Virus record (IMG/VR): IMGVR_UViG_3300032322_001385
Location: 1 to 50,653 of that record
DNA length: 50,653 bases
From: a virus
Direction: 5' to 3' (one strand)
The stretch's first letter is position 1; each line of letters begins with the position of its first letter. Below the pieces are notes generated by a model. It saw nothing but the letters and a program-made list of their open reading frames with translations, was not told where the DNA came from and did not search any database. This document shows, piece by piece, positions 6,635 to 43,337 of this stretch. Position numbers and translations under genes: made by a program.

Positions 6635-8062
6635 ATGCCACTCACCGCAAACGGATCTGGACAGATCACGGGGTCGTTCACGATCCCCGCCAACGTGCCC
6701 GTCGGCTCGAAGCGCGTCACCTTCCTGGGTAACCAGGGCAGCTTCGGCGCGGCCCGCTTCATCGGCTCCGGCACGATCCTCACGCGCACCCAGCGTCAGC
6801 TCACCACGATCGAGACCCGGTTCTGGGATCCGCTGGCGCAGACCTTCCGCCTGGATGAGTCGCGGCACGTCACCGGCGTCGACTTCAAGTTCACGGCGGT
6901 CGGCAACACCGCCAACAAGGTCTACCTGGAAATCCGCGAGACCGAGCTGGGCCTGCCCAACGCCACCACGCTGGCCGAGGGCGTGATTCAAGGCACGGCG
7001 ATCACTGTCAACGCCTGGAACAAGATCAGCCTGACGCGGCCCGTCTACCTGCAGGCCGGCGTCGAATACTCGATGGTGCTGCTGACCGATGACGCCAACC
7101 ACGCAGTTGGCCTGGCTGAGCTCGGCAAGTTCGACATCGCCGCCCAGCAGTTCGTCACCTCGCAGCCCTACACGATCGGCACGCTGCTCAAGTCGAGCAA
7201 CGCCTCGACCTGGACGCCTGTGCAGGAGTCGGACCTGACCTTCCGCATGTACGGGGCTCGCTTCACCAGCACCACGCGGACGATCAACCTGGGCCAGCTG
7301 CGGGGCACTGCAGTCGCAAGCCTCACCCGCTCTGGCGGGACTGCGACGCTCACCACCAGCACGCCGCACGGCTTCGTCACCGGCCAGAAGGTGGTGATCA
7401 GCGGCGCGACGCAGACCGACTACAACGGCGCTTTCACGGTCACCGTCACCGGCCCGACCGTGTTCACCTACACGGTGGCGAACAGCCCGGCGACGCCCGC
7501 CACCGGCACGATCCTGATCTCGGCTGGCGACATCACCGACCTGGTGGCGCTTGCAGGCGTTGAGCGGATCAGCTCGGAGACCGACGCCGAGTTCATCTTT
7601 ACCAAGCCCGACAGCAGCCAGATCCGCGGCGCCGACAACGCCCGCATCCAGCTGGCCGAGGATGTGAACGTGCCGCTGACCCTCTCGGCAGTACTGCGCG
7701 GCACTACCACCCTTAGCCCCTACCTGTTCGCTGGCAGCCAGGCGGTCTACGGCAACCTCGGCGAGACCGGCACCTACGTGAGCCGTGCGATCCCATGCGC
7801 CGCCAACGCTAAGGTCTCCTGCACCTTCGAGTCGCTGCTGCCCGGGGCATCAAGCGTGCTGGTGGAGTTTGAGACCAGCACCGGCACATGGCAAACGGTG
7901 TCGCTCACCAGCAGCTCGCCGGTTGGCGACGGCTGGATCGAGCAGATCCACACCGTCGCCTCCTTCGCCGCTGGTGGCACGACCACCCGCGTGCGCCTTA
8001 CCCTCACTGGAACGGCTGCCGCCCGCCCGCAGCTGCGCCAGCTCCGTCTCGTGGTGATCTGA
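6635..8062 (+). CDS. Fibre-like virion protein with SGGTATLTT-type module
   Basis: A 475-residue all-beta protein five bases after the DUF4815 gene. Residues of about 60-200 resemble a jelly-roll or carbohydrate-binding-like sandwich (DPLAQTFRLDESRHVTGVDFKF, VYLEIRETELGLPNATTLAEG). A short module near residue 225 (SGGTATLTTSTPHGFVTGQK, then YNGAFTVTVTGPTVFTYTV) recurs widely in phage and environmental tail proteins. DUF4815-type proteins and this gene may form one distributed adhesin complex. No catalytic motif was recognised. Confidence 0.6.
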   Translation: MPLTANGSGQITGSFTIPANVPVGSKRVTFLGNQGSFGAARFIGSGTILTRTQRQLTTIETRFWDPLAQTFRLDESRHVTGVDFKFTAVGNTANKVYLEIRETELGLPNATTLAEGVIQGTAITVNAWNKISLTRPVYLQAGVEYSMVLLTDDANHAVGLAELGKFDIAAQQFVTSQPYTIGTLLKSSNASTWTPVQESDLTFRMYGARFTSTTRTINLGQLRGTAVASLTRSGGTATLTTSTPHGFVTGQKVVISGATQTDYNGAFTVTVTGPTVFTYTVANSPATPATGTILISAGDITDLVALAGVERISSETDAEFIFTKPDSSQIRGADNARIQLAEDVNVPLTLSAVLRGTTTLSPYLFAGSQAVYGNLGETGTYVSRAIPCAANAKVSCTFESLLPGASSVLVEFETSTGTWQTVSLTSSSPVGDGWIEQIHTVASFAAGGTTTRVRLTLTGTAAARPQLRQLRLVVI

Positions 8063-8066
8063 TCCC

Positions 8067-10037
8067 ATGCCCATCGACGACCGCACAACGAACCGCAGCT
8101 ACAAACTGCCGAACGCTGGCAACCTTCTCAGCGACGACGTAACGCGTCTGCGCGAGTCGCTGACGGCGATCGACGCAGATGTCTTCGCTCGCTACACCAA
8201 GACCGAGACCGATCAGAAGCTGGCGGATCTGATCAACGGCGCCCCTGGCGCGCTCAATACCCTGCAGGAGCTGGCCACGGCGATGGGAAACGACCCCAAC
8301 TTCGCCACGACAATCACCAATGCGCTCGCTGGCAGGCCCGTCTTCGCCGACGTGTGGACCCGTACCCAGGCGGATGCGCGCTACGTGCAGGGGATTGCGC
8401 AGACCGAGAACATCTTCACTGGCACGGGCAGTCAGACGACCTTTGCGCTCAGCCAGACGCCACCCAGTCGCGAGTCGCTGCTGGTGACGGTCGACGGCGT
8501 GGTGCAGCCCGTCAGCGAGTACAGCCTGAGCGGCTCAGCGCTCATTCTGAGCGAGGCCCCGGCCAGCGGTTCAAAGATCCGCGTGCTCATGTTGGGCGTT
8601 GCAGGGCCGGTGCAGAGCGCGAGCACGCTGAACTTTGCGCATGCCGGCGCTGGAACCGTCACGCGAACGGTTGAGAGCAAACTGAGAGATGTGCTCCATG
8701 TCAAGGATCTTGGCTGCGCGTGCAACGGAATAGCAGACGACGGCGCAACACTCAACGCAGCGATTTATGCGAGATACAACGGCCTAGCAACCAGCCAAAG
8801 CCAAGAGTATGTAGAGATCCACGCAAGCCCAGGTGACGTTCTCAAGTTTGCTACCCCCGTCACGGTGCGCCAAAACCGGATTCGATTCATTGGCAATGGT
8901 GCCAAGATTGTCTGCACTGGGCAATACGCCTTTGACTTTACTCAAGACAGCAGCGGCAACATTAACGAAGACGGTGGGGTAATTGGATGGAAGATTACTG
9001 GTGCAACCCTTGCAGCCATTCGTGGCCGCGCATGTGCGTTTACCCGAATTGAGAATAACTGGTTCACTGGCAACAATGCTGCAATCGACCTGCAGGCAGT
9101 AGGTGCCATTATCCGTGATAACTACATCAGGGAGAACACTGGGGCAGGAATCACCCTGCTGTCTGCTATTGTCGTCGGAGGCGGCAGATCGGAAAGCCAG
9201 CGATGCGTTGTTGAGCATAATCGTGTTTACCTCAACGGCGGCATTGGCATATTCCTTAAAGACGGTGGCGGGCACTATCTTGGTGGCAACGACCTTGAGG
9301 TAAATACCTCGGTTGAACTGCTCGTCAGGTCTTCCTTTGGAAATACCATCTTCGGGTTGTACTCAGAGCCTACTGCTGGCATCCCGATCATTCAAATCGA
9401 CAACGCATCCACTGATGTTCCTGGGCGTAACTCAGAAAGCAACCAGATCATAGGTGGCACATTTGGTGGTGGAGCGGTTTGGGACATTAACATATCAGGT
9501 GGAAACAGCACGGTTGTATCGGGGGTGCGCTTTGGAACTGGAAACATCAACATCTCTGCGGGTGTTAATGGTACGGTTCTTCTTCCTTGTAATGGCAACA
9601 CTCCGACTGTCACAAACAGTGGCAACGGCACGTTGGATATGACAGCGCCGGGTAAGATCAAGATGTACTCAGGAACCTTCAACCGTATCCTGTTAGATGC
9701 AACTGACGCAAGTGGCGGCGTCATTAGTGGTGTTGACAACCTGCTGCACTTTGCGGGCATCAAAGGCATCAGCACATCACAAACAAAGTCTAAAAATCTT
9801 TTCGGCTTTGTTGACATTACCGGCACAGCTACTACGGCAGCGGTCACGTTTGGCACAGCGGAAACCGATGCGGCATACGGGACGTTTTTCGGCGTGTGGC
9901 ATGCTGCCGGGACACCTGCTAGTGGGTCGGAAGCTGTCTACATGACAGCACGGGCCACATCTGGATTCACGATCAACCTGCGAGCCGCACCAGGCGCCGG
10001 GAATACGGTGCGAGTGCATTGGATGATTGTTCGATAG
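8067..10037 (+). CDS. Tailspike with predicted right-handed beta-helix (possible depolymerase)
   Basis: A 656-residue protein. The N-terminal 90 residues carry YTKTETDQKLADLINGAPG and LNTLQELATAMGNDPNFAT, a fibre attachment pattern. After about residue 200 comes a pectate-lyase-3/tailspike-like entry, LRDVLHVKDLGC then CNGIADDGATLNAAI. A repetitive beta-helix follows (ENNWFTGNNAAIDLQA, DNYIRENTGAGITLL, EHNRVYLNGGIGIFLKDGG). Such proteins bind and often cleave surface polysaccharide, but catalytic acids cannot be assigned from sequence alone. DNA composition becomes visibly less GC-rich from about 8690 to the end of the gene, suggesting exchange of the receptor-binding part while the N-terminal anchor stayed. 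Confidence 0.75.
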   Translation: MPIDDRTTNRSYKLPNAGNLLSDDVTRLRESLTAIDADVFARYTKTETDQKLADLINGAPGALNTLQELATAMGNDPNFATTITNALAGRPVFADVWTRTQADARYVQGIAQTENIFTGTGSQTTFALSQTPPSRESLLVTVDGVVQPVSEYSLSGSALILSEAPASGSKIRVLMLGVAGPVQSASTLNFAHAGAGTVTRTVESKLRDVLHVKDLGCACNGIADDGATLNAAIYARYNGLATSQSQEYVEIHASPGDVLKFATPVTVRQNRIRFIGNGAKIVCTGQYAFDFTQDSSGNINEDGGVIGWKITGATLAAIRGRACAFTRIENNWFTGNNAAIDLQAVGAIIRDNYIRENTGAGITLLSAIVVGGGRSESQRCVVEHNRVYLNGGIGIFLKDGGGHYLGGNDLEVNTSVELLVRSSFGNTIFGLYSEPTAGIPIIQIDNASTDVPGRNSESNQIIGGTFGGGAVWDINISGGNSTVVSGVRFGTGNINISAGVNGTVLLPCNGNTPTVTNSGNGTLDMTAPGKIKMYSGTFNRILLDATDASGGVISGVDNLLHFAGIKGISTSQTKSKNLFGFVDITGTATTAAVTFGTAETDAAYGTFFGVWHAAGTPASGSEAVYMTARATSGFTINLRAAPGAGNTVRVHWMIVR

Positions 10038-10075
10038 CCATGAACATCTCCGCGACCTATCACTCCCACTGACCC

Positions 10076-10738
10076 ATGCCACTCCAAAGGATTCCCGGCG
10101 CCATGGTGTCGGACTCGACGATTACCTCAGCCGACGTTCAAGACGGCACGCTGACCGGCGCTGATGTGCAAGACGGCAGCATCGGCACCGCCGATGTTCA
10201 AGACGGCTCGCTAACCGGCGGTGACGTTCAGGACGGCACCATCGCTCAAGTTGATCTGGCAGATGGCGCGGCATCGCCGCGACAAGGCACCAGCGTTAAC
10301 ACCACAAGCGGCACATCTCAGCCCTTCAACATTCCAGCCTGGGCAAACAGAATCACGATCAACCTGGCAGGCGTGTCGCTCAGCGGCACTGCGCTCCTGC
10401 GCTTCCAGCTGGGTACCAGCGGAGGGTTCGTCACCAGCGGCTACAGCGGCGCTGGATCGGTGTTCAGCTCCGGCGCCGCAACCGTCAACCAGACCGCCGG
10501 ATTCGACGTTTACACCAACGTCCCCGTCGCCACCTACACCTACACCGGCACGCTCACCCTGAACCGGCTGACTGGCAACACCTGGGTGGCCAGCGGCGTG
10601 TTCTCCGCATCGATCGGGTGGACCCACACGGTCGCCGGCTCAATCGCCCTGGCAGCCGCGCTCACCCAGGTGCGATTGTTCACCAGCAACGGCACTGACA
10701 CCTTCGACGCCGGTTCCATGAACGTGCAGTTCGAGTAA
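10076..10738 (+). CDS. Virion protein with decapeptide repeats and C-terminal beta domain
   Basis: A 220-residue protein. Residues 15-64 are five units of ten residues with core ADVQDGT/S-L/I. The Asp positions 20, 30, 40, 50 and 60 are exactly periodic, as expected for a stacked fibrous coil. Residues 75-220 form a beta-sandwich-like domain (FNIPAWANRITINLAG, then LLRFQLGTSGGFVTSGY) ending in DAGSMNVQFE. A short shaft with a globular tip is the likely form, so a small tail fibre is inferred. The stop overlaps the next small gene (TAATG). Confidence 0.6.
   Translation: MPLQRIPGAMVSDSTITSADVQDGTLTGADVQDGSIGTADVQDGSLTGGDVQDGTIAQVDLADGAASPRQGTSVNTTSGTSQPFNIPAWANRITINLAGVSLSGTALLRFQLGTSGGFVTSGYSGAGSVFSSGAATVNQTAGFDVYTNVPVATYTYTGTLTLNRLTGNTWVASGVFSASIGWTHTVAGSIALAAALTQVRLFTSNGTDTFDAGSMNVQFE
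10118..10267 (+). repeat. Five-copy 30-bp in-frame repeat (decapeptide coding)
   Basis: Five consecutive 30-base units encode TxxADVQDGx decapeptides in the fibre-like gene at 10076. The first four units keep ADVQDG or GDVQDG while the fifth is degenerate (VDLADG). Codons vary between units at third positions (GACGTTCAAGAC, GATGTGCAAGAC, GATGTTCAAGAC), so the repeat is old and kept by protein selection. Confidence 0.85.
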
Positions 10739-13278: not shown

Positions 13279-15266
13279 TCGGCGGCGGTGCGCAGAAGAT
13301 CACGGTTGAGATCGGCGGCAAGATTGCCGCCAGTCTCGGCGCGTCGCTCCGTTCCGCTCAGACTCAGGTCAGCAGCTTCGGGCGGAACGTTAACCGCAAG
13401 CTGAATGATGCGGCGATCGCTGGCCGCAAGGGCTTCAAGGGGATCTTCGACAATGCGCTCTGGCAGCAGGCCGCGGCCGGCGCTGCAGCGATCGGTGTCG
13501 GCATGGCGGCCAGCGTGCGCGTGGCGGCCACCTTCGAAGGCGTGCTGACGGAGATCGGCAAGACCGCCAACGCCAGCCAGGGTGAGCTAAAGACGCTGAG
13601 CGGCGAGATCCTCAAGCTCTCCAGCCGGAGCACCACCAACCTGGGCCCGGCCAAGCTGGCCGAGGGCATCCAAGACCTGGTTGCCCAGGGCCTGGAGTTG
13701 AAGGACGCAACCGCGTCGATCGAGACGCTCGGGCGAGTGGCGACCGCCACCGGGTCAGATCTGCTCGACGTGACCAAGACCGGCTTCCAGCTGCAGAACG
13801 CGCTGAAGATCCGTCCGACGGAGCTCAAGGCGACGTTCGATGCGCTGGCCTTCGCCGGCAAGCAGGGCGCCTTCGAGCTGCGGGACATGGCGCAGTTCAT
13901 GCCGACCATCGCTGCAGCTGCCGGCAGCCTGGGGATCCAGGGCCGCGAGGGTGCGGTGAGCCTGGCGGCGATGATGCAGATGGTGCGAAAGGATGCGCCT
14001 GACGCGGGCCAGGCCAGCACCAGGCTGACCGACGCAATGCTGAAGCTGACCGCGCCGGATGCGGTGAAGCGGTTCGCCAAGTTCGGCGTCAATATCGAGC
14101 AGGTGCTGAAGGACGCGCGGAAGAAGGGCGTCAACCCGATGGAGGCTGCACTGGATCAGCTGCAGCGCGTCACCGGCGGCGACGTGTTCAAGCTCTCGCA
14201 GATTTTCGGCGACAAGGAAGCCAAGTTGGCCCTGATGTCGCTGATGAAGTATCGGAAGGAGTACGAGAAGCTGAAGGGCGAAGCAGGCGGATCGGCCGCG
14301 GCCGGCACCGTCGACAAGGACTATGAGCGCTCGATCAAAACCTTTGCCGGCACGCTCGCGAGCTTCCAGAACTCATCGCAGCGGCTTGGCATCGCGGTCG
14401 GCAATGCACTCCTGCCACCCCTGACGCGGATGGCCGAGGTCATCACGCCGATTGTTGAAGGCATCGCCAACTGGGCAGCGGTCAACCCCGGCCTGGCCAA
14501 GAACATCGTCGCGATCGGCGCGGTCCTTTCCGGCCTAACCCTGGCGCTGCCCGTGATCGCTGGCGTGGTCGGCGCGATCGGCGTACTCGGGGGGCCTGTC
14601 ACGTGGACAATCCTCGGGATCGGCGCAGCGATCGCTTTGGTCGTCGCCAACTGGGGCACGATCAAAACCGCAGCAGCTGCAGCATTCCAAGGTGTGACCT
14701 CACTCTGGGGCAGCTTTACAACCTGGATCGGCAACGTCTTCAAGCAAGCGGTGGGCATCATCCGTCAGTGGGGGCCCAAGGTGCTCGGCGTGATGTTCCC
14801 GATCCCGGGGATGATTATCCGGATGTTCAGCGGCAGCAACATCGGGCAGCGGATCATCACCTCGATCATCGATGGCCTCAAGGCCAGGTTCGGCGCGCTG
14901 GTTGGCTGGGTCCGTGGCGCATGGAGCAACATCTCCGGCATCTTCGGCGGCACTGCGCCGGCCGCTTCTGCTACTGGTCAGCCGGCTACACCCCCCGGCC
15001 GCGCAGCTGGCGGCAAGGTCAACGCCGGCCAGCCCTACGTCGTCGGCGAGCGGCGCCGTGAGCTGTTCGTGCCCGGCATGGATGGAGCGATCATCCCCCG
15101 CATCGCCAGGCCCGCCACGGGCGGCGGCGGTGTCACTATCCACGCTCCCGTTACGATCCATGCAGGCGGCGGCGACGCAATGGCGATCCGCGATCAGGTG
15201 CGCATGGCCTTCGAGGATCTGATCGCTCGCGCCTACGGCGACTACCGGGTGGCGCTCAATGACTAA
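13275..15266 (+). CDS. T: Tail tape measure protein
   Basis: A 663-residue protein with the TP901-type core: SVRVAATFEGVLTEIGKTANASQGELKTLSGEILKLS, VAQGLELKDATASIETLGRVA, then FELRDMAQFMPTIAAAAGSLGIQG. Hydrophobic stretches around residues 410-470 (NIVAIGAVLSGLTLALPVIAGVVGAIGVLGG, ILGIGAAIALVVANWG) could cross the host membrane during DNA ejection. The C-terminus is Gly/Pro-rich with RRRELFVPGMDGAIIPR. The protein sets tail length, and its size suggests a tail of ordinary myovirus length. Starts inside the E' stop (ATGA). Confidence 0.93.
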   Translation: MIGGGAQKITVEIGGKIAASLGASLRSAQTQVSSFGRNVNRKLNDAAIAGRKGFKGIFDNALWQQAAAGAAAIGVGMAASVRVAATFEGVLTEIGKTANASQGELKTLSGEILKLSSRSTTNLGPAKLAEGIQDLVAQGLELKDATASIETLGRVATATGSDLLDVTKTGFQLQNALKIRPTELKATFDALAFAGKQGAFELRDMAQFMPTIAAAAGSLGIQGREGAVSLAAMMQMVRKDAPDAGQASTRLTDAMLKLTAPDAVKRFAKFGVNIEQVLKDARKKGVNPMEAALDQLQRVTGGDVFKLSQIFGDKEAKLALMSLMKYRKEYEKLKGEAGGSAAAGTVDKDYERSIKTFAGTLASFQNSSQRLGIAVGNALLPPLTRMAEVITPIVEGIANWAAVNPGLAKNIVAIGAVLSGLTLALPVIAGVVGAIGVLGGPVTWTILGIGAAIALVVANWGTIKTAAAAAFQGVTSLWGSFTTWIGNVFKQAVGIIRQWGPKVLGVMFPIPGMIIRMFSGSNIGQRIITSIIDGLKARFGALVGWVRGAWSNISGIFGGTAPAASATGQPATPPGRAAGGKVNAGQPYVVGERRRELFVPGMDGAIIPRIARPATGGGGVTIHAPVTIHAGGGDAMAIRDQVRMAFEDLIARAYGDYRVALND

Positions 15267-21953: not shown

Positions 21954-22053
21954 AACTCCGGGAGCGGGAGGGATACCACGGGAAGCGGCGTGAGGCCATG
22001 CTCAGCAAAATCAAGGGGAAAGGAAAGCGCGGGATCCCCGAGGATAGCGGAAC

Positions 22054-22104
22054 GCATGACTTTTAATCAGGGGGTCCTGGGTTCGAGTCCCAGCGCGCTC
22101 ACCA
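22054..22104 (+). other. attP core: 3' half of a tRNA-Lys(UUU) gene
   Basis: The sequence contains the anticodon loop CTTTTAA (22060-22066), a T-arm (CTGGG-TTCGAGT-CCCAG, 22077-22093), acceptor strand CGCGCTC (22094-22100), A73 and CCA. It lies just upstream of integrase. The 5' half is not a normal tRNA: the D-arm is absent and the anticodon stem has a mismatch. Integration into a host tRNA-Lys gene would restore its 3' end. The crossover probably lies in the anticodon region. Confidence 0.8.
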
Positions 22105-26343: not shown

Positions 26344-26618
26344 GCCACCACCTCCACCACCATCCGGCGCAGGGTGGTGAGCACTTGGTGGCTCACTGAG
26401 CTGGCCTGCAGATATGTCATTTGGTGATCGATCAGGGCAACCACCTTCCAGCGCATCGCCTCGCCGCCTGGCAGCAAGGCGGCGAGGCCCTCGGTAGTAG
26501 TGGTGAGCCGCTCAAATGCTCGCGCCACGACCGCGGCCTCCGCATCAACTGCCGCGCGATCGGCGATCAGCTCATCCAGCAGCGAATCCAGCTGCTGGCG
26601 GGTTTCGGTGAGGGTCAT
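26340..26618 (-). CDS. Small helical early protein
   Basis: A 92-residue, almost entirely helical protein (TLTETRQQLDSLLDELIADRAAVDAEAAVVARAFERLTTTTEGLAALL, then MRWKVVALIDHQMTYLQASSVSHQVLTTLRRMVVEVVA). Acidic N-terminal half. No family recognised. Its start directly overlaps the methyltransferase stop. Confidence 0.6.
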   Translation of the reverse strand: MTLTETRQQLDSLLDELIADRAAVDAEAAVVARAFERLTTTTEGLAALLPGGEAMRWKVVALIDHQMTYLQASSVSHQVLTTLRRMVVEVVA

Positions 26619-27169
26619 CAGAACGGCACCGCACCGGGCCGGCTGCCCGGCTTGGTAAGCCGGACCATGCCGATCTCGCAGCGGGTGGTGCGCTCGGCGT
26701 CCTCGAACACTGGGCCCAGGTTCTGGCCGTTGCCATAAGCCGAGATCAACGTGCGCAGCTCCCGGCTAGCCCTGGAGCTCCAGCGGTCAGTGGAGATGGT
26801 GTTCCAGTTGCACAGCGCCACGATCTCGCAGCCGGCCGGGGCCACCTTCCAGGCATGGAGGATGTGGTGCTCGTCGGCGCTGAAGGGCGGGTTCATCACC
26901 ACTAGGTCAGCGTGGCTGATCTGGTCGGCGGTGACCTTGAGCCAGTCGGCGCTGATCAGGCGGCTGTCGGAGATGCCGGCCAAGATCGACCTGAGCTTCG
27001 GTTCGGGCTCCACCGCCAGCACTTCAGCGGCGCCGCGCTCGAGGCAGGCCTTGATCAGGTTGCCGCTGCCAGCGGATGGCTCGACAACGGTGCGGCCGCG
27101 CAGATCGAGCGGGTCGAGCATCATGGCCGCCACCAGCTCAGGCGTGGGGTAGAAGTCGGGGTTGAACAT
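26618..27169 (-). CDS. DNA N6-adenine-type methyltransferase
   Basis: A 183-residue methyltransferase. Motif X/I region FYPTPELVAAMMLDPLDLRGRTVVEPSAGSGNLI (S-adenosylmethionine loop EPSAGSG at 30-36), acidic turn VEPEPK, and motif IV NPPF at 93-96 (VVMNPPFSADEHH). NPPF marks amino-methyltransferases acting on adenine or cytosine-N4, or on a protein Gln. There is no recognition domain and no restriction partner nearby, so an orphan methylase protecting phage DNA or marking it for regulation is likely. I start at ATG 27169 (MFNPDFYPTPE) because the upstream frame lacks family sequence. Confidence 0.87.
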   Translation of the reverse strand: MFNPDFYPTPELVAAMMLDPLDLRGRTVVEPSAGSGNLIKACLERGAAEVLAVEPEPKLRSILAGISDSRLISADWLKVTADQISHADLVVMNPPFSADEHHILHAWKVAPAGCEIVALCNWNTISTDRWSSRASRELRTLISAYGNGQNLGPVFEDAERTTRCEIGMVRLTKPGSRPGAVPF

Positions 27170-27456
27170 CAGGCCACCTCCCGAGGCTTGCCCAGGAGTT
27201 CCAATCGGTCGAGCCACACGATGGTGTGCGCCTGCTGCTCTTCGATCGGCCGCAAGGTGCCGATCACGCCAACGAGGCTGTCCTCGTCCATCGACTCAAA
27301 GCTTTCGATGTCGGTTTGGCGGTGCGCGTGGCACTCGACAACAAGCTCAGGCCGCTGGTCCTTGTCATTGAAGGTCAGCAGAAACGAGACGTGATCGGAG
27401 TGGCATTGCAGCCGCGAGGCGCGGCCGACGAGGGTGATGCTGAAGCGCTTGGCCAT
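27169..27456 (-). CDS. Small OB-fold-like early protein
   Basis: A 95-residue protein. RFSITLVGRASRLQCHSDHVSFLLTFNDKDQRPELVVECHAHRQTDIESFESMDEDSLVGVIGTLRPIEEQQAHTIVWLDRLELLG follows the strand spacing of an SSB-like OB fold (…LVGVIGTLR… resembles 'v-v-G-r-l'). This is a pattern guess. Its stop overlaps the methyltransferase start (TGATG), suggesting co-translation. Confidence 0.55.
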   Translation of the reverse strand: MAKRFSITLVGRASRLQCHSDHVSFLLTFNDKDQRPELVVECHAHRQTDIESFESMDEDSLVGVIGTLRPIEEQQAHTIVWLDRLELLGKPREVA

Positions 27457-37140: not shown

Positions 37141-37860
37141 ATGACTTCTTCCAAGATCCCGGCGATGGCCAAGCGCATCGAGCTCTGGCCCGTCGAGAAG
37201 CTGGTGCCGTACGAGCGCAACGCACGCACGCACTCTGAAGCGCAAATTGCGCAGCTGGCAGCGAGCATCGTCGAGTTCGGCTTCCTCAATCCGATCCTGG
37301 TGGACACCTCGGCCGGGATCCTGGCGGGCCATGGCCGGCTGGCCGCGGCGCAGCAGCTGGGCCTGGCGAAGGTGCCGGTGGTGGTGCTCGACCACCTGGA
37401 TGAGCGGCAGCGCCGCGCCTACGTGCTGGCGGACAACAAGCTGGCGGAGAACGCGGGGTGGGACCTGGAGCTGCTGCGCCAGGAGATCAACGCGATGGAG
37501 ATCGACCCGGCGGTGCTGGGCTTCGGCGAGGACGACCTGAAGCGACTGCACGACGGGCTGGAGCTCGAGGCGTTCGAGGGCATGGCGGAGGCCGGCACGG
37601 AGCGGGCGGAGCCTGAGCACCAGCAGGGCCTGGGGCTGCCGGATGGCGACGACGAGGATGAGGCTGCAGACGCGACAGCGGAAAGCGGCGAGGTGGAGGA
37701 GCGGCACATCTTCAGCGTGAACCTGCTGTGGGATCACCGCGAGGTGGTGCTGGCTGCGGTGCGCGCGGCGAAGGAGCGTCATGGGCTGGAAGGAACGCCC
37801 GAGGCGCTGGTGCAGATCTGCAGGGAGTGGCTGGATGAGCAAGACGCTGGAACTGATTGA
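37141..37860 (+). CDS. ParB/Srx-type nuclease-domain protein
   Basis: A 239-residue protein. RIELWPVEKLVPYERNARTHSEAQIAQLAASIVEFGFLNPILVDTSAGILAGHGRLAAAQQLGLAKVPVVVL is the ParB N-terminal/Srx fold (GHGR loop for nucleotide or CTP/ATP binding). After about residue 160 comes an acidic linker (GDDEDEAADATAESGEVEE), then a helical end. No HTH is seen, unlike chromosomal ParB. In phages such domains occur in modification or regulation genes. It heads the late region and overlaps the cupin gene by 26 bases. Confidence 0.85.
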   Translation: MTSSKIPAMAKRIELWPVEKLVPYERNARTHSEAQIAQLAASIVEFGFLNPILVDTSAGILAGHGRLAAAQQLGLAKVPVVVLDHLDERQRRAYVLADNKLAENAGWDLELLRQEINAMEIDPAVLGFGEDDLKRLHDGLELEAFEGMAEAGTERAEPEHQQGLGLPDGDDEDEAADATAESGEVEERHIFSVNLLWDHREVVLAAVRAAKERHGLEGTPEALVQICREWLDEQDAGTD

Positions 37861-38539
37861 GCTGGCCCATGGGCTGCTGCGCGACCTGCCGGATTGCCGG
37901 TTGTGGGGCGTGGATGACGGGGCCCTGGTGCTGGGTGAGGACGCGACGCAGTTTGTGTTCTGCTGGCACGGTGCGCTGACGATTCGTCAGCAGGGGTGCT
38001 GGCCGCATGTGCTGACGGCGGGGATGTATGCGGCGGCCCCGGGCAGGTGCGAGGTGCGGCCGGTGGGCACGGATCTGAGCCGGGGCATCGTGATCAGCCG
38101 ACATGGGTGGCTGGGGATGATGTCGATCGGCGGCCCGCTCGAGGAGCGCGGTCGGCTGCGGTACATCGACGGCTGCACCGACAGCCTGCTGGTACCGCCG
38201 GTGCGACTGGGCGATCCCTGTCTCAATGGGCTGTGGTTCCCGATGGGCACCGAGCAGACGATGCACACGCATCCGAGCGTGCGTGTTGGGATGGTGGTGC
38301 ACGGGCGTGGATGGTGCGAGACGCCAGAGGGCGAGTTCGAGCTGCGGCCTGGGATGGTGTTCGTGATCCACCCGCACGGCGAGCACCGGTTCAGGACGGG
38401 GCGTGATGCAGGGCTGACGGTAGTGGCGTGGCACCCGGACAGCGACACGGGCCCAACGGACGTGGATCACCCGATGGTGAGGAAGACGATGGTTGCGGGC
38501 GTGTCGGCGGCGACGATCCCGGAGCTGCAGACGCGATGA
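37835..38539 (+). CDS. Cupin-domain protein
   Basis: A 234-residue protein from ATG 37835 (GGGAG seven bases upstream). The C-terminal part has a cupin signature: GTEQTMHTHPSVRVGMVVHGRGWCETPEGEFELRPGMVFVIHPHGEHRFRTGRDAGLTVVAWHPDS, with metal ligands His in THPS, Glu in TPEGE and His in HPHGEH. The N-terminal 110 residues (LELIELAHGLLRDLPDCRLWGVDDGALVLGEDATQFVFCW) are another domain. Cupins act as dioxygenases or small-molecule sensors. Coupled to the PAPS-reductase-like gene (ATGA overlap), so it probably serves the same pathway. Confidence 0.75.
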   Translation: MSKTLELIELAHGLLRDLPDCRLWGVDDGALVLGEDATQFVFCWHGALTIRQQGCWPHVLTAGMYAAAPGRCEVRPVGTDLSRGIVISRHGWLGMMSIGGPLEERGRLRYIDGCTDSLLVPPVRLGDPCLNGLWFPMGTEQTMHTHPSVRVGMVVHGRGWCETPEGEFELRPGMVFVIHPHGEHRFRTGRDAGLTVVAWHPDSDTGPTDVDHPMVRKTMVAGVSAATIPELQTR

Positions 38540-39708
38540 CGCTGCGTCCGACGACCACCGATCAGGACGTGATGAGTGCAGCGCTGGATCGGATCCGGCG
38601 GATCTACGACCTGTTCGACCGCGTGGTGGTGAGCTTCAGCGGGGGGAAGGACTCGACGACGGTGCTAAACCTGACGGCGATGGTGGCGCGCGAGCGCGGC
38701 CGGCTGCCGCTCGATGTCTACTTCGTCGATGAGGAGGCCTGCTACCCGGAGACGATCGAGTATGTGGAGCGGGTGCGCGCGCGTGATGAGCTGAGGTTTC
38801 TGTGGTGCTGCTTGCCGATCAAGCATCGGAACGCCTGCGCGCGGTCGCAGCCGTGGTGGAACTGCTGGGATCCGGCGGCGCGTGACCGGTGGATCCGACC
38901 GCTGCCGGCCGGCGCGGTGACGGTGAAGGATGCGCCGCGGTTCCGGATGGGGATGCAGCTCGACGATGTGGGCCCGGTGCTGTTCGGGCCGGAGTGCGGG
39001 ACGGTGGCCGACCTGACAGGGATCCGTGCGCAGGAGTCGGTGCGGCGGCTGCAGACGGTGACCAAGAAGGTGCGGGACAACTACATCGCTGGCGCGCGCG
39101 AGGGCTACTACTTCAACTGCAAGCCGATCTACGACTGGAAGGCTGAGGACGTGTGGGTGGCGGCGAGCCGCGAGGGGTGGGACTACAACCGCGCCTACGA
39201 CGTGCAGGCAATGATGGGCACGAGCGTGAGCCTGCAGCGGGTGACGCCGCCGTTCGGCGAGGAGCCGCTGGGCGGGCTGTGGAAGTATCCGCAGGGATGG
39301 CCGGAGCTGTGGGAGCGAATGCTGCGGCGTGTGGAGGGTGTGAGCACGGCGGGCCGCTATGCGCGCACGGATCTCTACGGGGCGGCGATGAATGAGCCGC
39401 CGCCAGGAATGACCTGGCAGCAGTGGACGCGGAGCCTGCTGGATCTGTATCCGGCGAAGGAGCGTGCGGAGATCGCGAAGAGCATGGCGGGTGTGATCCG
39501 GATGCACCAGAAGAAAACGCACCGGCCGATCCACGAGACGAAGGACGACGTGATGTCGGGGCTGAGCTGGAAGTACATCTGCCAGATGGTGAGCCGTGGT
39601 GATCTGAAGGGCCGGAAGAAGGGCCAGCTGACGCAGCGCGCGATCACGGCGGCGAAGAAGGCGGGGCTGACGTTCGACGAGGTGAAGGCGCTGGAGGCGA
39701 AGCGATGA
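38536..39708 (+). CDS. PAPS-reductase/IbrA-like PP-loop protein
   Basis: A 390-residue protein. The PP-loop SFSGGKDST (34-41) is the ATP-pyrophosphatase motif of PAPS reductases and DndC/IbrA-type proteins. Further parts: YFVDEEACYPETIEYVERV, LTGIRAQESVRR, YNCKPIYDWKAEDVWVAA-like block, and a C-terminal helical extension. The sequence shares features with phage IbrA-like proteins rather than sulfate-assimilation enzymes (no Cys tail). In E. coli IbrA works with ParB-like IbrB to control other genes; the pair here may do the same or modify DNA. The gene lies between a cupin and the ParB-HTH gene, each overlapping. Confidence 0.85.
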   Translation: MTLRPTTTDQDVMSAALDRIRRIYDLFDRVVVSFSGGKDSTTVLNLTAMVARERGRLPLDVYFVDEEACYPETIEYVERVRARDELRFLWCCLPIKHRNACARSQPWWNCWDPAARDRWIRPLPAGAVTVKDAPRFRMGMQLDDVGPVLFGPECGTVADLTGIRAQESVRRLQTVTKKVRDNYIAGAREGYYFNCKPIYDWKAEDVWVAASREGWDYNRAYDVQAMMGTSVSLQRVTPPFGEEPLGGLWKYPQGWPELWERMLRRVEGVSTAGRYARTDLYGAAMNEPPPGMTWQQWTRSLLDLYPAKERAEIAKSMAGVIRMHQKKTHRPIHETKDDVMSGLSWKYICQMVSRGDLKGRKKGQLTQRAITAAKKAGLTFDEVKALEAKR

Positions 39709-40229
39709 GCGTGGCGGAGCAGCCGGTGTCGAGAGTGCGATGGCTGCCGCGCGAGCAGCTGCGGGGCAATTCCTACAACCCGAACCATGTCGCGGCTCCG
39801 GAGCTGGAGCTGCTGGTGGTGAGCATCCTGGAGGATGGCTGGACCTCGGCGATCGTGACGCTGCCCGAGGACAAGGACGGCAGCTTCCAGATCGTGGATG
39901 GGTTTCACCGGTGGACGGTGAGCGCGGATCCGCGATTGCTGGCGCTGACCGGCGGCCAGGTGCCGACGGTGCAGGTGCGGTTGGATCCGGTGCACCGGAT
40001 GATGAGCACGATCCGGCACAACCGTGCGCGTGGCACTCATGCGGTGCTGAAGATGGCGGGCATCGTGCGGAGCATCGCCGATGATGGCGTGCCGCAGCGA
40101 CAGATCCAGAAGCGCCTCGGGATGGAGTCGGAAGAGGTGGTGCGGCTGGTGAATCGGGCAGGGATGCCTACCCAAGTGCGCAAGGTGGCGCCAGGATTGA
40201 ACAAGGCCTGGGTGCCCGGAAAAGGATGA
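39705..40229 (+). CDS. IbrB-like ParB-domain HTH protein
   Basis: A 174-residue protein. VRWLPREQLRGNSYNPNHVAAPELELLVVSILEDGWTSAIVTLPEDKDGSFQIVDGFHRWTVSAD is a ParB/Srx fold with DGFHR in place of GHGR. A helical HTH-like part follows (HNRARGTHAVLKMAGIVRSIADDGVPQRQIQKRLGMESEEVVRLVNRAG). Such IbrB-like proteins are encoded beside PAPS-reductase-like IbrA. The four-base overlap with the PP-loop gene gives strong linkage. Confidence 0.82.
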   Translation: MSVAEQPVSRVRWLPREQLRGNSYNPNHVAAPELELLVVSILEDGWTSAIVTLPEDKDGSFQIVDGFHRWTVSADPRLLALTGGQVPTVQVRLDPVHRMMSTIRHNRARGTHAVLKMAGIVRSIADDGVPQRQIQKRLGMESEEVVRLVNRAGMPTQVRKVAPGLNKAWVPGKG

Positions 40230-40597
40230 TCCTGCAACTCACCTGGGCCGGCTTCGATGCAGCGGTTGACCTGCTGGCGGCGCAGTGCCCACGCGATCGC
40301 GTTGGCGTGCATGGCGTCGATCGCGGCGGCCAGCTGCTGGCGTGGGCGCTGAGCGAACGGCTGGGTGTGGAGCTGATGCGCCGGCCCGGGGCCGGGATGC
40401 TGCAGCTGCATGGCGTGATGGTGTCGCAGCCGCGGTTGCTGTGGGGCGATGCGCTGGTGCTGGCATGGATCGATGCGACGCCCGGGCAGAACCTGATGGC
40501 GGTGTGCAAGGCGACGCCGGGCACCACGGTGCTGATGCCCTGGCAGAATGCGAGAGGGTGCCGCCCACGTCCGTTTGTCCCCGGGTTCGATGATTGA
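40226..40597 (+). CDS. PRTase-like protein
   Basis: A 123-residue protein. FDAAVDLLAAQCPRDRVGVHGVDRGGQLLAWALSERLGVELMR, then GDALVLAWIDATPGQNLMAVCKATPGTTVLMPWQNA resembles a phosphoribosyltransferase fold. The usual PRPP loop (VDDI-DTG) is only partly matched (LVLAWIDATPGQ), so activity is doubtful. A sensor or a divergent transferase would fit the adjacent nucleotide-handling genes. Overlaps its neighbours. Confidence 0.55.
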   Translation: MILQLTWAGFDAAVDLLAAQCPRDRVGVHGVDRGGQLLAWALSERLGVELMRRPGAGMLQLHGVMVSQPRLLWGDALVLAWIDATPGQNLMAVCKATPGTTVLMPWQNARGCRPRPFVPGFDD

Positions 40598-40874
40598 GGT
40601 CGCCAGCATCCGATATGGCTGTGAGTGGGACGAGCGGGGGCACGTGAGAGCGTGGCCGATGCGAATCGAGTTCGGCCCCACTGGCGCTGAGGTGACGGTT
40701 GATCAGATGCTGGAGGGCCGCGGCCACACGGTGATGCTGACCGACCAGTTGGTTGAGCTGGTGAACGGGATGACGCCGCAGGAGACGCCGATCCAACTGG
40801 TGTGCCCTGCGCCGCCAGGTCTGGCGCGCAAGCTGATTGAGCGCGGTTTCTACGTCGAGTTGCTCCATCACTGA
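40590..40874 (+). CDS. Small hypothetical protein before terminase
   Basis: A 94-residue protein from ATG 40590 (overlapping the previous stop by 8 bases). MIEVASIRYGCEWDERGHVRAWPMRIEFGPTGAEVTVDQMLEGRGHTVMLTDQLVELVNGMTPQETPIQLVCPAPPGLARKLIERGFYVEL. Two-layer alpha/beta pattern, no family recognised. It stands between the PRTase-like and terminase small subunit genes. Confidence 0.55.
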   Translation: MIEVASIRYGCEWDERGHVRAWPMRIEFGPTGAEVTVDQMLEGRGHTVMLTDQLVELVNGMTPQETPIQLVCPAPPGLARKLIERGFYVELLHH

Positions 40875-41440
40875 TGCTGATCAAGCTGGCCGACTACGCC
40901 GAGCGCCATGGGGTGAGTCCGCAGGCGGTGCGAAAGGCGATCAACACGGGCCGTCTGCAGCGGAGTGTGCAACGCGAGGGGAAGCTCTACTGGATCGACC
41001 CGGAGGTGGCGGACATCGAGTGGGGGCGCAACACAGCGCCGGAGCAGCAGCGCAGCAAGGATGCGATCAAAGCGGGAAAGAGCGCAGCGCGCGGCGAGGG
41101 TGAGCCGCTGCCGCCAATGGGCCCGCCGGTTGGAAAGGGCGGCGCCACCTATGCGAGCGCCAAGGCAGCGGCCGAAGGCTACAAGGCGATGCTGCTCAAG
41201 CTCGATTACGAGGAGCGGGCTGGGAAGCTGGTCGACAAGTCAACGGCTGAGCGTGGGTTCGCTGCTGCTGGGATGCAGGTGCGCGATGCTGTGATGCGCA
41301 CGAGTCAGCAGATGGTGGGTGATATTGCATCAGCGGTGGGCGGGCTGAGCCAAGAGCAGCGAGCAGCGGTGATGCAGGTGATCGACCGGCATCATGTAAG
41401 GGCCCTCGAGGAGTTGGTGCGTGCAGCTGGCGTCAGCTGA
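40874..41440 (+). CDS. Terminase small subunit (Nu1-like)
   Basis: A 188-residue protein. N-terminal winged HTH: LADYAERHGVSPQAVRKAINTGRLQRSVQREGKLYWIDPEVADIEW. Then a linker and a helical C-terminus (ASAKAAAEGYKAMLLKLDYEERAGKLVDKSTAERGFAAAGMQVRDAVMRTSQQMVGDIAS), matching the Nu1-type small subunit that recognises the packaging site. It overlaps the large terminase by 20 bases. Confidence 0.85.
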   Translation: MLIKLADYAERHGVSPQAVRKAINTGRLQRSVQREGKLYWIDPEVADIEWGRNTAPEQQRSKDAIKAGKSAARGEGEPLPPMGPPVGKGGATYASAKAAAEGYKAMLLKLDYEERAGKLVDKSTAERGFAAAGMQVRDAVMRTSQQMVGDIASAVGGLSQEQRAAVMQVIDRHHVRALEELVRAAGVS

Positions 41441-43337
41441 AGAAACGCTGAAGGCGTTCTGGCGGACGCTGCGGCCCGACCCGCTGTTGACGGTGAGCGA
41501 GTGGGCGGATCAGCGGCGAGTGTTGAGCAGCAAGGCGAGCAGTGAGCACGGGCCGTGGAGAACGGCGCGAACCCCTTATCTCCGCAAGGCCATGGACGAC
41601 CTTTCGGCGACGAGCACGGTGCAGGAGGTGGTGCTGGTGTTCGGGGCGCAGATGGGAAAGAGCGAGATGCTGAACAACTGGATGGGCTACGTGATGGACA
41701 TCCAGCCCGGGCCAGCGCTGTTCGTGCAGCCGACGATCGACATGGCGAAGCGCTACTCGAAGATGCGCATCGCGCCGATGATCGAGGCAACGCCGAGCCT
41801 GCAGGAGAAGGTGAAGGCGCCGCGCGAGCGCGACTCGGGCAACACGCAGCTGATGAAGGAGTTCACCGGCGGCTTCCTGATCTTGGGCGGCGCCAATGCA
41901 GCGAGCGGGCTGGCGTCGATGCCGATCCGCTTCCTGGGCGGCGACGAGATCGACCGCTGGCCTGCGGACGTTGATGAGGAAGGCAGCCCCCTGGCGATTG
42001 TGAGCGCGCGGACGCGGACGTTCGGCGTGCGGAAGAAGCAGGCCTGGACGAGCACACCGACGCTGGCGGGGCGGAGTGCAATCTGGGGCAAGTGGGAGGA
42101 CAGCAACCAGCAGCGGCTGCTGTTGCCCTGTCCGCACTGCGGGCACCGGCAGATGATCGAGTGGGACCGGATCCGGTACGACCCGAAGGATCCGGGCCTG
42201 CCGAACACGCTGCGGCAGCCACCGGTGCTGATCTGCGAGGAGTGTGGCGTCGGGATCGAGGAAGACGCGAAGGCCTGGTGGTACGACCCGGATGTGTTTG
42301 ACGACGACTGGTGGGAACCGCTGTTCCCTGATCGCCAGGCGCAGGGGTACCACTGCTCTGCGCTCTACAGCCCGCTGGGTTGGTTCAGCTGGACTGATGC
42401 AGCGGTGGATCACGAGAAGGCGAAGGACAATCCGGCGGAGCTGAAACCGTGGACCAACACGGTGTTGGCCGAGTGCTGGAACGACGACGGCGAAGCGCCG
42501 GATTGGGAGGCGCTCTACAACCGGCGGGAGCTCTACGAGCTGGGCACGGTGCCTGAGCAGGTGGCGTTCATCACCTGCGGGGTGGACGTGCAGATGGATC
42601 GCCTCGAACTGGAGGTGGTGGGCTGGGGCCCTGGGATGGAGAGCTGGAGCCTGGATTATCAGGTGCTGGCGGGCGACACGGCGCAGCCGGCAGTGTGGCG
42701 CGAGCTGACGAAGTTCGTGCGGTCGGAGTTCGGCCGCGGCGATGGGCAGCGGCTGCCGATCAGGATGACGGCGATCGACTCGGGATTCAGGAGCCAGGAG
42801 GTCTACCGGTGGGTGCGTGGCCAGGCCGGTAACCGTGTGATTGCGATCAAGGGCGGCGGCGACAGCCAGACCTCGATCATCGGCACACCGGGGCGGGTGG
42901 AGGTGCTGCGGAACGGCAAGGCGTTAAGAGGTGGCGTGAAAGTGTGGCCGGTGGGGGGCAGCACGGCGAAGAGCGAGCTCTATGGCTGGCTGCGGCGGCC
43001 GATGCCTGATGACGGTGACGGGCTGCCGCATGGCTGGTGCCACTTCCCGCAGTATGGCGAAGAGTGGTTCCGGCAGCTGTGCGCCGAGCGGCTGACGAAC
43101 ACGATCGACCGGCGGGGCTATAACCGGTTCGAGTGGATCAAGACGCGGCCGCGCAACGAGGCGCTCGACTGCAGGGTGTATGCGCGGGCGGCAGCAGCGC
43201 TGGTTGGCGCTGATCGGTGGAGCGATGAGCGGTGGGATGAGGAGCGAAGCGGTAGTGCGGTGCGTGACGTGCCACGACCTGCGCAGGTGCAGGATGACAG
43301 CGCGCCAGCGCCATCAGGGGGAAGCTTCTGGGACTGA
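41421..43337 (+). CDS. A: Terminase large subunit (GpA-type)
   Basis: A 638-residue packaging ATPase/nuclease starting at GTG 41421 (GAGGAG upstream). Walker A-type FGAQMGKSE at 74-82, acid motif LGGDEIDRWP, and a CPHCGH / CEECG zinc cluster as in lambda GpA. The nuclease part has GVDVQMDRLELEVVGWG (Asp), AIDSGFRSQEVYRWVRG and RNEALDCRVYA. It cuts at the packaging site and pumps DNA. The GpA type suggests cos-like ends. The C-terminal tail is Pro/Ser-rich. Confidence 0.94.
   Translation: MQLASAEETLKAFWRTLRPDPLLTVSEWADQRRVLSSKASSEHGPWRTARTPYLRKAMDDLSATSTVQEVVLVFGAQMGKSEMLNNWMGYVMDIQPGPALFVQPTIDMAKRYSKMRIAPMIEATPSLQEKVKAPRERDSGNTQLMKEFTGGFLILGGANAASGLASMPIRFLGGDEIDRWPADVDEEGSPLAIVSARTRTFGVRKKQAWTSTPTLAGRSAIWGKWEDSNQQRLLLPCPHCGHRQMIEWDRIRYDPKDPGLPNTLRQPPVLICEECGVGIEEDAKAWWYDPDVFDDDWWEPLFPDRQAQGYHCSALYSPLGWFSWTDAAVDHEKAKDNPAELKPWTNTVLAECWNDDGEAPDWEALYNRRELYELGTVPEQVAFITCGVDVQMDRLELEVVGWGPGMESWSLDYQVLAGDTAQPAVWRELTKFVRSEFGRGDGQRLPIRMTAIDSGFRSQEVYRWVRGQAGNRVIAIKGGGDSQTSIIGTPGRVEVLRNGKALRGGVKVWPVGGSTAKSELYGWLRRPMPDDGDGLPHGWCHFPQYGEEWFRQLCAERLTNTIDRRGYNRFEWIKTRPRNEALDCRVYARAAAALVGADRWSDERWDEERSGSAVRDVPRPAQVQDDSAPAPSGGSFWD

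Follow-up and report, generated by a model that had tools for sequence, protein, structure and literature searches.

Introduction

The closest described relatives of the genes considered here are the PP-loop protein IbrA and the ParB-like protein IbrB of Escherichia coli ECOR-9, which reportedly switch on prophage eib genes. Genes of the IbrA/IbrB type number in the hundreds among phage records and include ybdNM of E. coli K-12; to our knowledge, no chemistry has been assigned to them. Here we analyze a related locus in IMG/VR virus record IMGVR_UViG_3300032322_001385, whose whole stretch of 50,653 nucleotides we call the window. At this locus, a ParB gene (ParB1), a bicupin gene, an IbrA-like PP-loop gene, and an IbrB-like ParB gene (ParB2) stand together in front of the terminase genes.

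Proteins with similar parts are found in described DNA modification systems. In phage DNA, carboxymethylcytosine is amidated by CmoY, a ligase of the asparagine-synthetase type that frequently has a ParBc neighbor (PMC12783734). The ParB-like ATPase DpdB serves preQ0 insertion into DNA (PMC12839542), and DndB of the Dnd system is a ParB-superfamily protein (PMC10853773). The IbrA/IbrB pair and the fusions of ParB to methylases are already known. In the openly accessible literature we found no description of the four-gene unit, of the exchange of genes in its slot, or of its position before terminase, and searches of it for the gene set in mycobacteriophages or together with ectoine synthase gave nothing relevant.

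A conserved module of four genes

The five consecutive, overlapping open reading frames (ORFs) described in an earlier note on this DNA are confirmed; they lie on the + strand of the window, with successive overlaps of 26, 4, 4, and 4 bp. ParB1 (37141..37860), which has the ParB/Srx fold without a helix-turn-helix (HTH), matched ParB_N (PF02195, E 3e-9), phrog_620 (E 2e-52), the DNA methyltransferase family phrog_498 (E 3e-49), and, over residues 9-137, the PADLOC model MTase_II (E 7e-40). The bicupin (37835..38539; 234 aa; AraC_binding PF02311/Cupin_2 PF07883) is followed by the IbrA-like PP-loop ATP pyrophosphatase (38536..39708; 390 aa), with matches to PAPS_reduct (PF01507, E 6e-13) and DUF3440 (PF11922, E 2e-12) and the PP-loop motif SGGKDS at residue 35. 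ParB2 (39705..40229), a ParB/Srx protein of the IbrB kind, ends in an HTH-like part, matched phrog_2159 (E 1e-53), and has the motifs VDGFHR and RHNRARG. The fifth ORF (40226..40597) encodes a degenerate phosphoribosyltransferase (PRTase)-like protein of 123 aa (phrog_8995, E 0.008).

The gene order of the cluster was kept in 22 related viral contigs wherever the contigs reached far enough. The 22 IMG/VR relatives of the PP-loop protein were 77-97% identical to it and belonged to a single terminase lineage, so they carry little information on function. Chance can be excluded as the origin of the cluster, because the order is kept in these relatives and the four-gene core recurs in far more distant contigs.

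A scan of viral contigs with a cupin profile returned at least 100 contigs with identity down to ~40%. Hidden Markov models of all five genes, run on these cupin loci, placed ParB1, the PP-loop gene, and ParB2 next to the cupin nearly everywhere, and the PRTase-like gene in the window's lineage only. Scans with PP-loop and ParB2 profiles were then added. Redundancy was removed at 85% identity, and partners were counted if they lay within 5 kb of the cupin. The counts describe the near family of the window, since the contigs were its best matches, not drawn at random, and had themselves gone in part into the profiles. ParB1, the PP-loop protein, and ParB2 were all present in 68 of the 71 non-redundant viral cupin contigs, and the other three were all cut at contig ends. 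With the PP-loop gene as anchor, the 69 flank-complete contigs contained ParB2 in every case, ParB1 in 55, and the cupin in 42; at PP-loop scores of at least 450 the flank-complete counts were 46/46 for ParB1 and 40/46 for the cupin. Except at contig ends or broken loci, the viral cupin was never found without the PP-loop protein and ParB2. The order ParB1-cupin-PP-loop-ParB2 was seen in 54 contigs, while the cupin came last in ~7 and first in 2, and this rearrangement favors function rather than mere position. The module was also found in prophages from different phyla, in Bacteroidota and Paraburkholderia. An intact copy lies in a prophage of Paraburkholderia adhaesiva ZD32-2 (L168), with ParB1 at 7174-7941, the cupin at 7917-8696, the PP-loop gene at 8696-9895, ParB2 at 9861-10451, and TerS- and TerL-like genes at 14220 and 14671. 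Neither the cupin nor the PRTase-like gene had a tblastn match in 50,697 records of isolated phages, and the single plasmid match (Paraburkholderia caribensis, L326) had the cupin but not the module. Psychrobacter phage Y8A, with ParB and PAPS-reductase annotations, had a weakly related PP-loop protein located elsewhere in its genome.

ParB1, the bicupin, the IbrA-like PP-loop protein, and the IbrB-like ParB2 are therefore a genuine conserved module. The earlier note had inferred that all five genes may form one system and had suggested a search for their co-conservation. When this search was run, the two ParB genes, the cupin, and the PP-loop gene were seen to travel together, but the PRTase-like gene did not. 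Of 114 non-redundant PP-loop contigs, 6 had it, and these were all of the window's lineage; its absence beyond the lineage rules it out as a fifth member. Its match to PRTases was weak: phrog_8995 also weakly matched 7 of 13 relatives (best relative E 0.002), a PDB search with the protein gave no match, and no phosphoribosyl pyrophosphate (PRPP) motif was visible by eye in the alignment.

Some loci were interrupted. In three contigs (L038, L100, and L271) a stretch from the end of the cupin gene through the entire PP-loop gene into the first part of ParB2 was missing, through deletions or assembly chimeras; if the deletions are real, this joint loss speaks for a unit. In another (L016:2378-2905), an ORF of ~170 aa starting AAWLAGIIDGEGSIGI, homing-endonuclease-like by eye, lay between the PP-loop and ParB2 genes.

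Position before the terminase genes

The first gene of at least 330 aa downstream of ParB2 was scanned with Pfam in 51 module contigs. This gene matched GpA terminase in 17 contigs, Terminase_6N in 20, Terminase_3 in 11, and TerL_ATPase in 8 (the classes may overlap), and was a portal protein in one. The next large gene is almost always TerL, from at least four Pfam terminase families. One contig (L014) was excluded from the scan, since its first large gene is an inserted radical SAM gene, with TerL behind it. In 11 further contigs no gene of at least 330 aa was called within reach, and TerL was found by BLAST in two of these.

In the window itself the cluster does not lie directly before terminase, where the earlier note had placed it. 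A sixth small gene (40590..40874, +) intervenes, encoding a conserved, lineage-specific protein that tblastn found in those close relatives whose contigs extend to it and that had no match in a Pfam scan. The chain of overlapping ORFs continues through it into the + strand genes for the terminase small subunit TerS (40874..41440; phrog_57, E 4e-21) and the GpA-type large subunit TerL (41421..43337), whose 90% identical orthologue in L003 matched GpA_ATPase and GpA_nuclease.

Outside the module, the ParB1 subfamily is fused to phage DNA methylases, as its phrog and PADLOC matches showed. In Acidithiobacillus phage AcaML1, two methylases lie upstream of terminase and one of them carries the ParB1 match; lone ParB1-like genes precede terminase in many other phages. 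The pre-terminase slot looks like a place for DNA-modifying genes.

Exchange of genes in the cupin slot

The place of the bicupin was filled by other genes in a number of contigs, and the swapped or added genes were mostly tailoring enzymes. An unrelated small Cupin_2 protein replaced the bicupin in five contigs (L219, L221, L230, L236, and L237). One of these (L237) also encoded a second small PP-loop protein and a class-II glutamine amidotransferase, a combination that stood beside the bicupin in L281, and the bicupin-less operon of L221 contained an aldehyde dehydrogenase. Other contigs carried a GT25 glycosyltransferase with a small PP-loop-like protein (L285), an S-adenosylmethionine (AdoMet) decarboxylase with a SET domain (L311), or a methylase-like gene in the slot (L313), and the swapped or added tailoring genes included SDR and N6/N4 methylase-like genes. 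Three relatives of the window had an additional ParB. In two of them it stood alone, inserted between ParB2 and the PRTase-like gene, with a radical SAM protein of motif CGHACTYCF behind it (L007:5388-7258 and L014:9708-11565); in the third (L022) it was fused to DUF4417.

Genes of another kind were also seen. SSF symporters occupied the cupin slot in three contigs (L222:4587-6020, L226:4578-6020, and L308:919-2340), and a TctC-type binding protein replaced the cupin between ParB1 and the PP-loop gene in two (L189:2756-3595 and L193:5121-5975). Both TctC-type proteins had a signal-peptide-like start.

Yet another cupin, similar to ectoine synthase, was fused to IbrB or lay directly before it in mycobacteriophage Gaia and phage XCL1123, adjoining the PP-loop gene. 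At least three unrelated cupin families (bicupin, small Cupin_2, and ectoine-synthase-like) have thus been joined to PP-loop/ParB2 genes, and we regard their independent recruitment as the best indication that these genes are functionally linked.

The PP-loop and ParB2 proteins

The PP-loop protein passed the curated cut-offs of PF01507 (49.5 bits) and PF11922 (47.9 bits), and it matched phage proteins annotated as IbrA. In a tree of 120 sequences, it fell in a clade of 84 rows, 68 of them with a cupin, and a separate clade of 24 rows took in E. coli YbdN together with phage IbrA and other such pairs of two genes; both branches had a support of 99. A third clade of nine rows had ParB1 with other enzymes. 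The claim of an IbrA/IbrB-like pair was thus borne out at the level of families, but on this tree the window protein stands in a clade sister to that of true IbrA/YbdN and is not IbrA proper. Residues of the motifs SGGKDS, GIRxxES, and PIYDW were preserved in nearly all sequences. Cysteines C92 and C101 were found in 76/84 and 73/84 rows of the cupin clade, respectively, and the classic clade was without C101. The model of the protein had a predicted local distance difference test (pLDDT) score of 89, with FAD synthase and PAPS reductase as the top Foldseek matches.

We rejected a role in sulfate assimilation (CysH). The ECGLH motif, at 238 in E. coli CysH, was absent from the window protein, which fell far under the CysH model cut-offs. 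The earlier note would have been refuted by a clear grouping with sulfate-assimilation enzymes; with the motif absent and DUF3440 present, the protein does not resemble them.

The ParB2 profile matched ParB/Noc structures. Its motifs VDGFHR and RHNRARG were conserved, and the same motifs occurred in E. coli YbdM.

The cupin and its chromosomal homologues

The cupin model (pLDDT 95) showed a bicupin with two beta-barrel domains, and bicupins headed the structure lists. Ten residues were nearly invariant in ~165 viral and 75 cellular homologues (Y110, C114, D116, C129, N131, Q141, H144, H146, R150, and H184); from this conservation we predict a metal-type active site. The cupin had no DNA-binding domain. 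In VIA, BacB and members of the (S)-ureidoglycine aminohydrolase family were the best neighbors (Z 18-20). Since VIA and Foldseek rank many cupin enzymes closely, among them dioxygenases, isomerases, and BacB, the fold does not name the reaction.

A function as (S)-ureidoglycine aminohydrolase (AllE) was not supported, since in our alignment the metal site was not kept despite the likeness of fold. We take the AllE metal ligands to be E-x-H-x3-H ... Q of the C-terminal cupin. The E. coli AllE stretch ETHVQEH aligned with HTHPSVR of the window protein, so that E is replaced by H and H by R, in an alignment that was weak (hhalign probability 3.7) and left the Q/H184 position outside the aligned part.

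In a quick tree built to see if the module had come together a single time, phage and cellular cupins were interleaved and the backbone was poorly supported. The chromosomal cupin was mostly without IbrA/IbrB, and among the 80 loci listed, the module PP-loop was present only in L104, L122, L126, and L168. It was often near an asparagine synthetase (24 of the 80 loci listed), near another protein with SGGIDS in 10 loci (by the motif alone, with no Pfam match), and near NeuB/SpsF-type sugar genes in ~10. With AsnB-type or other PP-loop proteins near the chromosomal cupin, the partnership of cupin and PP-loop protein is a recurring theme.

A chromosomal operon that joins a bicupin gene to genes for a Toprim/zinc-ribbon-like protein and an asparagine synthetase was seen at L121:7902-11313 and at similar loci in ~22 bacterial genomes, from Planctomycetota, Verrucomicrobiota, Acidobacteriota, and others.

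Other features of the window

The source phage has a contractile tail, as judged by its tail sheath gene, and a GC content of 0.644. Away from the module, at 26618-27217 on the - strand, the window encodes a methylase-like protein with weak PADLOC matches to mad2 and MTase_II. A tRNA-Lys (ttt) gene lies at 22025-22104. No ParA was noticed among the annotated genes of the window, which was annotated in part.

Function of the module

We propose that the four genes are a modular phage cassette for hypermodification, seated in the pre-terminase slot and acting most likely on DNA, and we regard this proposal as an even call. For a unit with this gene order, slot exchange, terminase adjacency, and set of conserved active sites, we infer the following chemical steps and target. 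ParB1 and ParB2, as ParB/Srx-fold nucleoside triphosphate (NTP)-binding proteins, would deliver or activate the target on DNA, and ParB1 would act in the way it does in its fusions to DNA methylases. The PP-loop protein would spend ATP to adenylate the target or the incoming group, and the cupin, or its substitute in the slot, would make or trim the added group. The likeliest product would be a viral DNA base altered late in infection, either ahead of packaging or while it proceeds, which would protect the DNA from host nucleases or mark it for packaging. The target could instead be a small molecule, or the modification one of the DNA backbone. The co-conservation of the four genes, their rearranged order, the tailoring enzymes in the slot, the methylase-type ParB1, and the terminase genes that follow across families speak for the cassette, with CmoY and DpdB as precedents.

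Several observations weigh against the proposed cassette. The link of ParB1 to the module is partly positional, because its adjacency to terminase is common without the other module genes. The cupin has the same active site when encoded in bacterial chromosomes, near AsnB-type or other PP-loop genes or NeuB/SpsF genes, so it may act on a diffusible sugar or amino acid. The SSF symporters and TctC proteins in the slot resemble uptake genes, not DNA enzymes, and E. coli IbrA/IbrB is known as a gene activator.

The last point leads to a reading in which the PP-loop protein and ParB2, with ParB1 and a ligand-sensing cupin, are a transcriptional co-activator that switches on late genes, those of their own terminase operon first. 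The IbrA/IbrB homology, the Pfam match of the cupin to the AraC ligand-binding domain, the HTH-like region of ParB2, and the coupling to the terminase operon agree with this, and annotators name such proteins co-activators of prophage gene expression. However, relatives fill the cupin slot with tailoring enzymes, the cupin has an invariant metal-type site and no DNA-binding domain, and the classic IbrA/IbrB pairs that we inspected were not beside terminase whereas module-type loci are, all of which make a co-activator quite unlikely. The earlier note had left a nucleotide-using regulator and a DNA modifier open; the swapped enzymes and the methylase-type ParB1 favor modification, and a regulator is less favored. 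It is also unlikely, if somewhat easier to reconcile with the data, that the cassette is aimed at a host nucleotide messenger or other small molecule, which it would alter or destroy as a counter-defense or metabolite enzyme built from the ParB/Srx NTPase, the PP-loop protein, and the cupin, with its pre-terminase cargo position incidental. The cupin site shared with bacterial small-molecule contexts, the uptake-type genes, and the ability of the slot to carry unrelated cargo are consistent with such an enzyme, but it would need no DNA-associated partner, yet two ParBs are always kept and one is of the methylase type, and a counter-defense cassette should lie in an early position, not a late one.

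Phosphorothioation of the Dnd/Ssp type, in which the PP-loop protein would be the sulfurtransferase and one of the ParB proteins would stand in for DndB, is very improbable. The PP-loop protein weakly matched DndC, BrxP, and SspD, DndB is likewise of the ParB superfamily (PMC10853773), and C92 and C101 are retained in most of the clade. Neither cysteine is universal, however, and the DndC matches spanned the PP-loop alone, at 22 bits against a cut-off of 290 for the DndC model. We disfavored this route since no DndD and no DndE match was found in the window and eight related viral records, the DndE search having had no positive control. Least probable of all, and scarcely credible, is the absence of any functional unit, with the pre-terminase slot as a cargo hot spot whose genes are neighbors by position. 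ParB1-like genes do precede terminase in many phages without the others, and the contents of the slot vary. But the dependence of the viral cupin on its two partners, the constant membership under varying order, the independent recruitment of different cupin families, and the prophages of Bacteroidota and Paraburkholderia all speak against a hot spot.

It is possible, although we hold this view with some doubt, that the proposed cassette represents a distinct modular class, in which two ParB/Srx NTPases and an IbrA-like PP-loop protein would be a fixed core that takes a tailoring enzyme as a plug-in (a bicupin or another cupin, an amidotransferase, an aldehyde dehydrogenase, or a glycosyltransferase) and couples modification to packaging across unrelated packaging systems. 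The module ties IbrA/IbrB-type genes to a conserved-site cupin, a methylase-type ParB, and a fixed pre-terminase place, so that the question posed by phage pairs of "PAPS reductase" and "ParB" becomes a concrete one, that of a module-dependent modified base. If the proposal is true, it would add a new route of DNA modification, and a family often read as sulfur metabolism would be re-annotated.

Comparison with known systems

PADLOC gave no system match for the cupin, ParB2, or the PRTase-like protein, and its other matches were partial. Dnd/Ssp systems have PP-loop and ParB-superfamily parts in common with the module, but whole-length similarity to DndC is absent here. In Dpd (DpdA with the ParB-like DpdB, PMC12839542), the likeness is a ParB-like NTPase that serves DNA modification; no DpdA/TGT or preQ0 genes were noticed beside the module, in a window annotated in part and with no profile search made for them. 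The glutamine amidotransferase and PP-loop protein of L237 and L281 recall Gat-QueC of phages. CmoA/CmoX/CmoY of Synechococcus phage S-B43 (PMC12783734) resembles the module in having a PP-loop ligase that acts on phage DNA, often with a ParBc neighbor. However, CmoY is of the asparagine-synthetase type, whereas the module PP-loop protein is of the PAPS-reductase/DUF3440 type and is accompanied by a cupin. A CmoX-like C5-methylase route was rejected, since a C5-methylase homologue (PF00145) was found in none of ten related viral records (the window record not among them).

Mycobacteriophage Phlyer (B3) has the same layout, with ParB as gp1, a PAPS reductase-like protein as gp4, IbrB as gp5, and terminase as gp6. 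Its locus differs in having no cupin and a long-branch PP-loop protein, and the papers searched on the leftmost genes of mycobacteriophage B3 reported no function.

E. coli IbrA/IbrB (ECOR-9) and YbdN/YbdM (K-12) share with the window proteins the adjoining PP-loop DUF3440 and ParB families and the motifs SGGKDS, GIRxxES, PIYDW, and RHNRARG. In contrast to the window's clade, where ParB1 is nearly always and the cupin usually present, classic IbrA/IbrB pairs are mostly without either (ParB1 in 3/17 and cupin in 2/17 flank-complete contigs with scores of 300-450), and it is the module-type loci, not the classic pairs inspected, that lie next to terminase.

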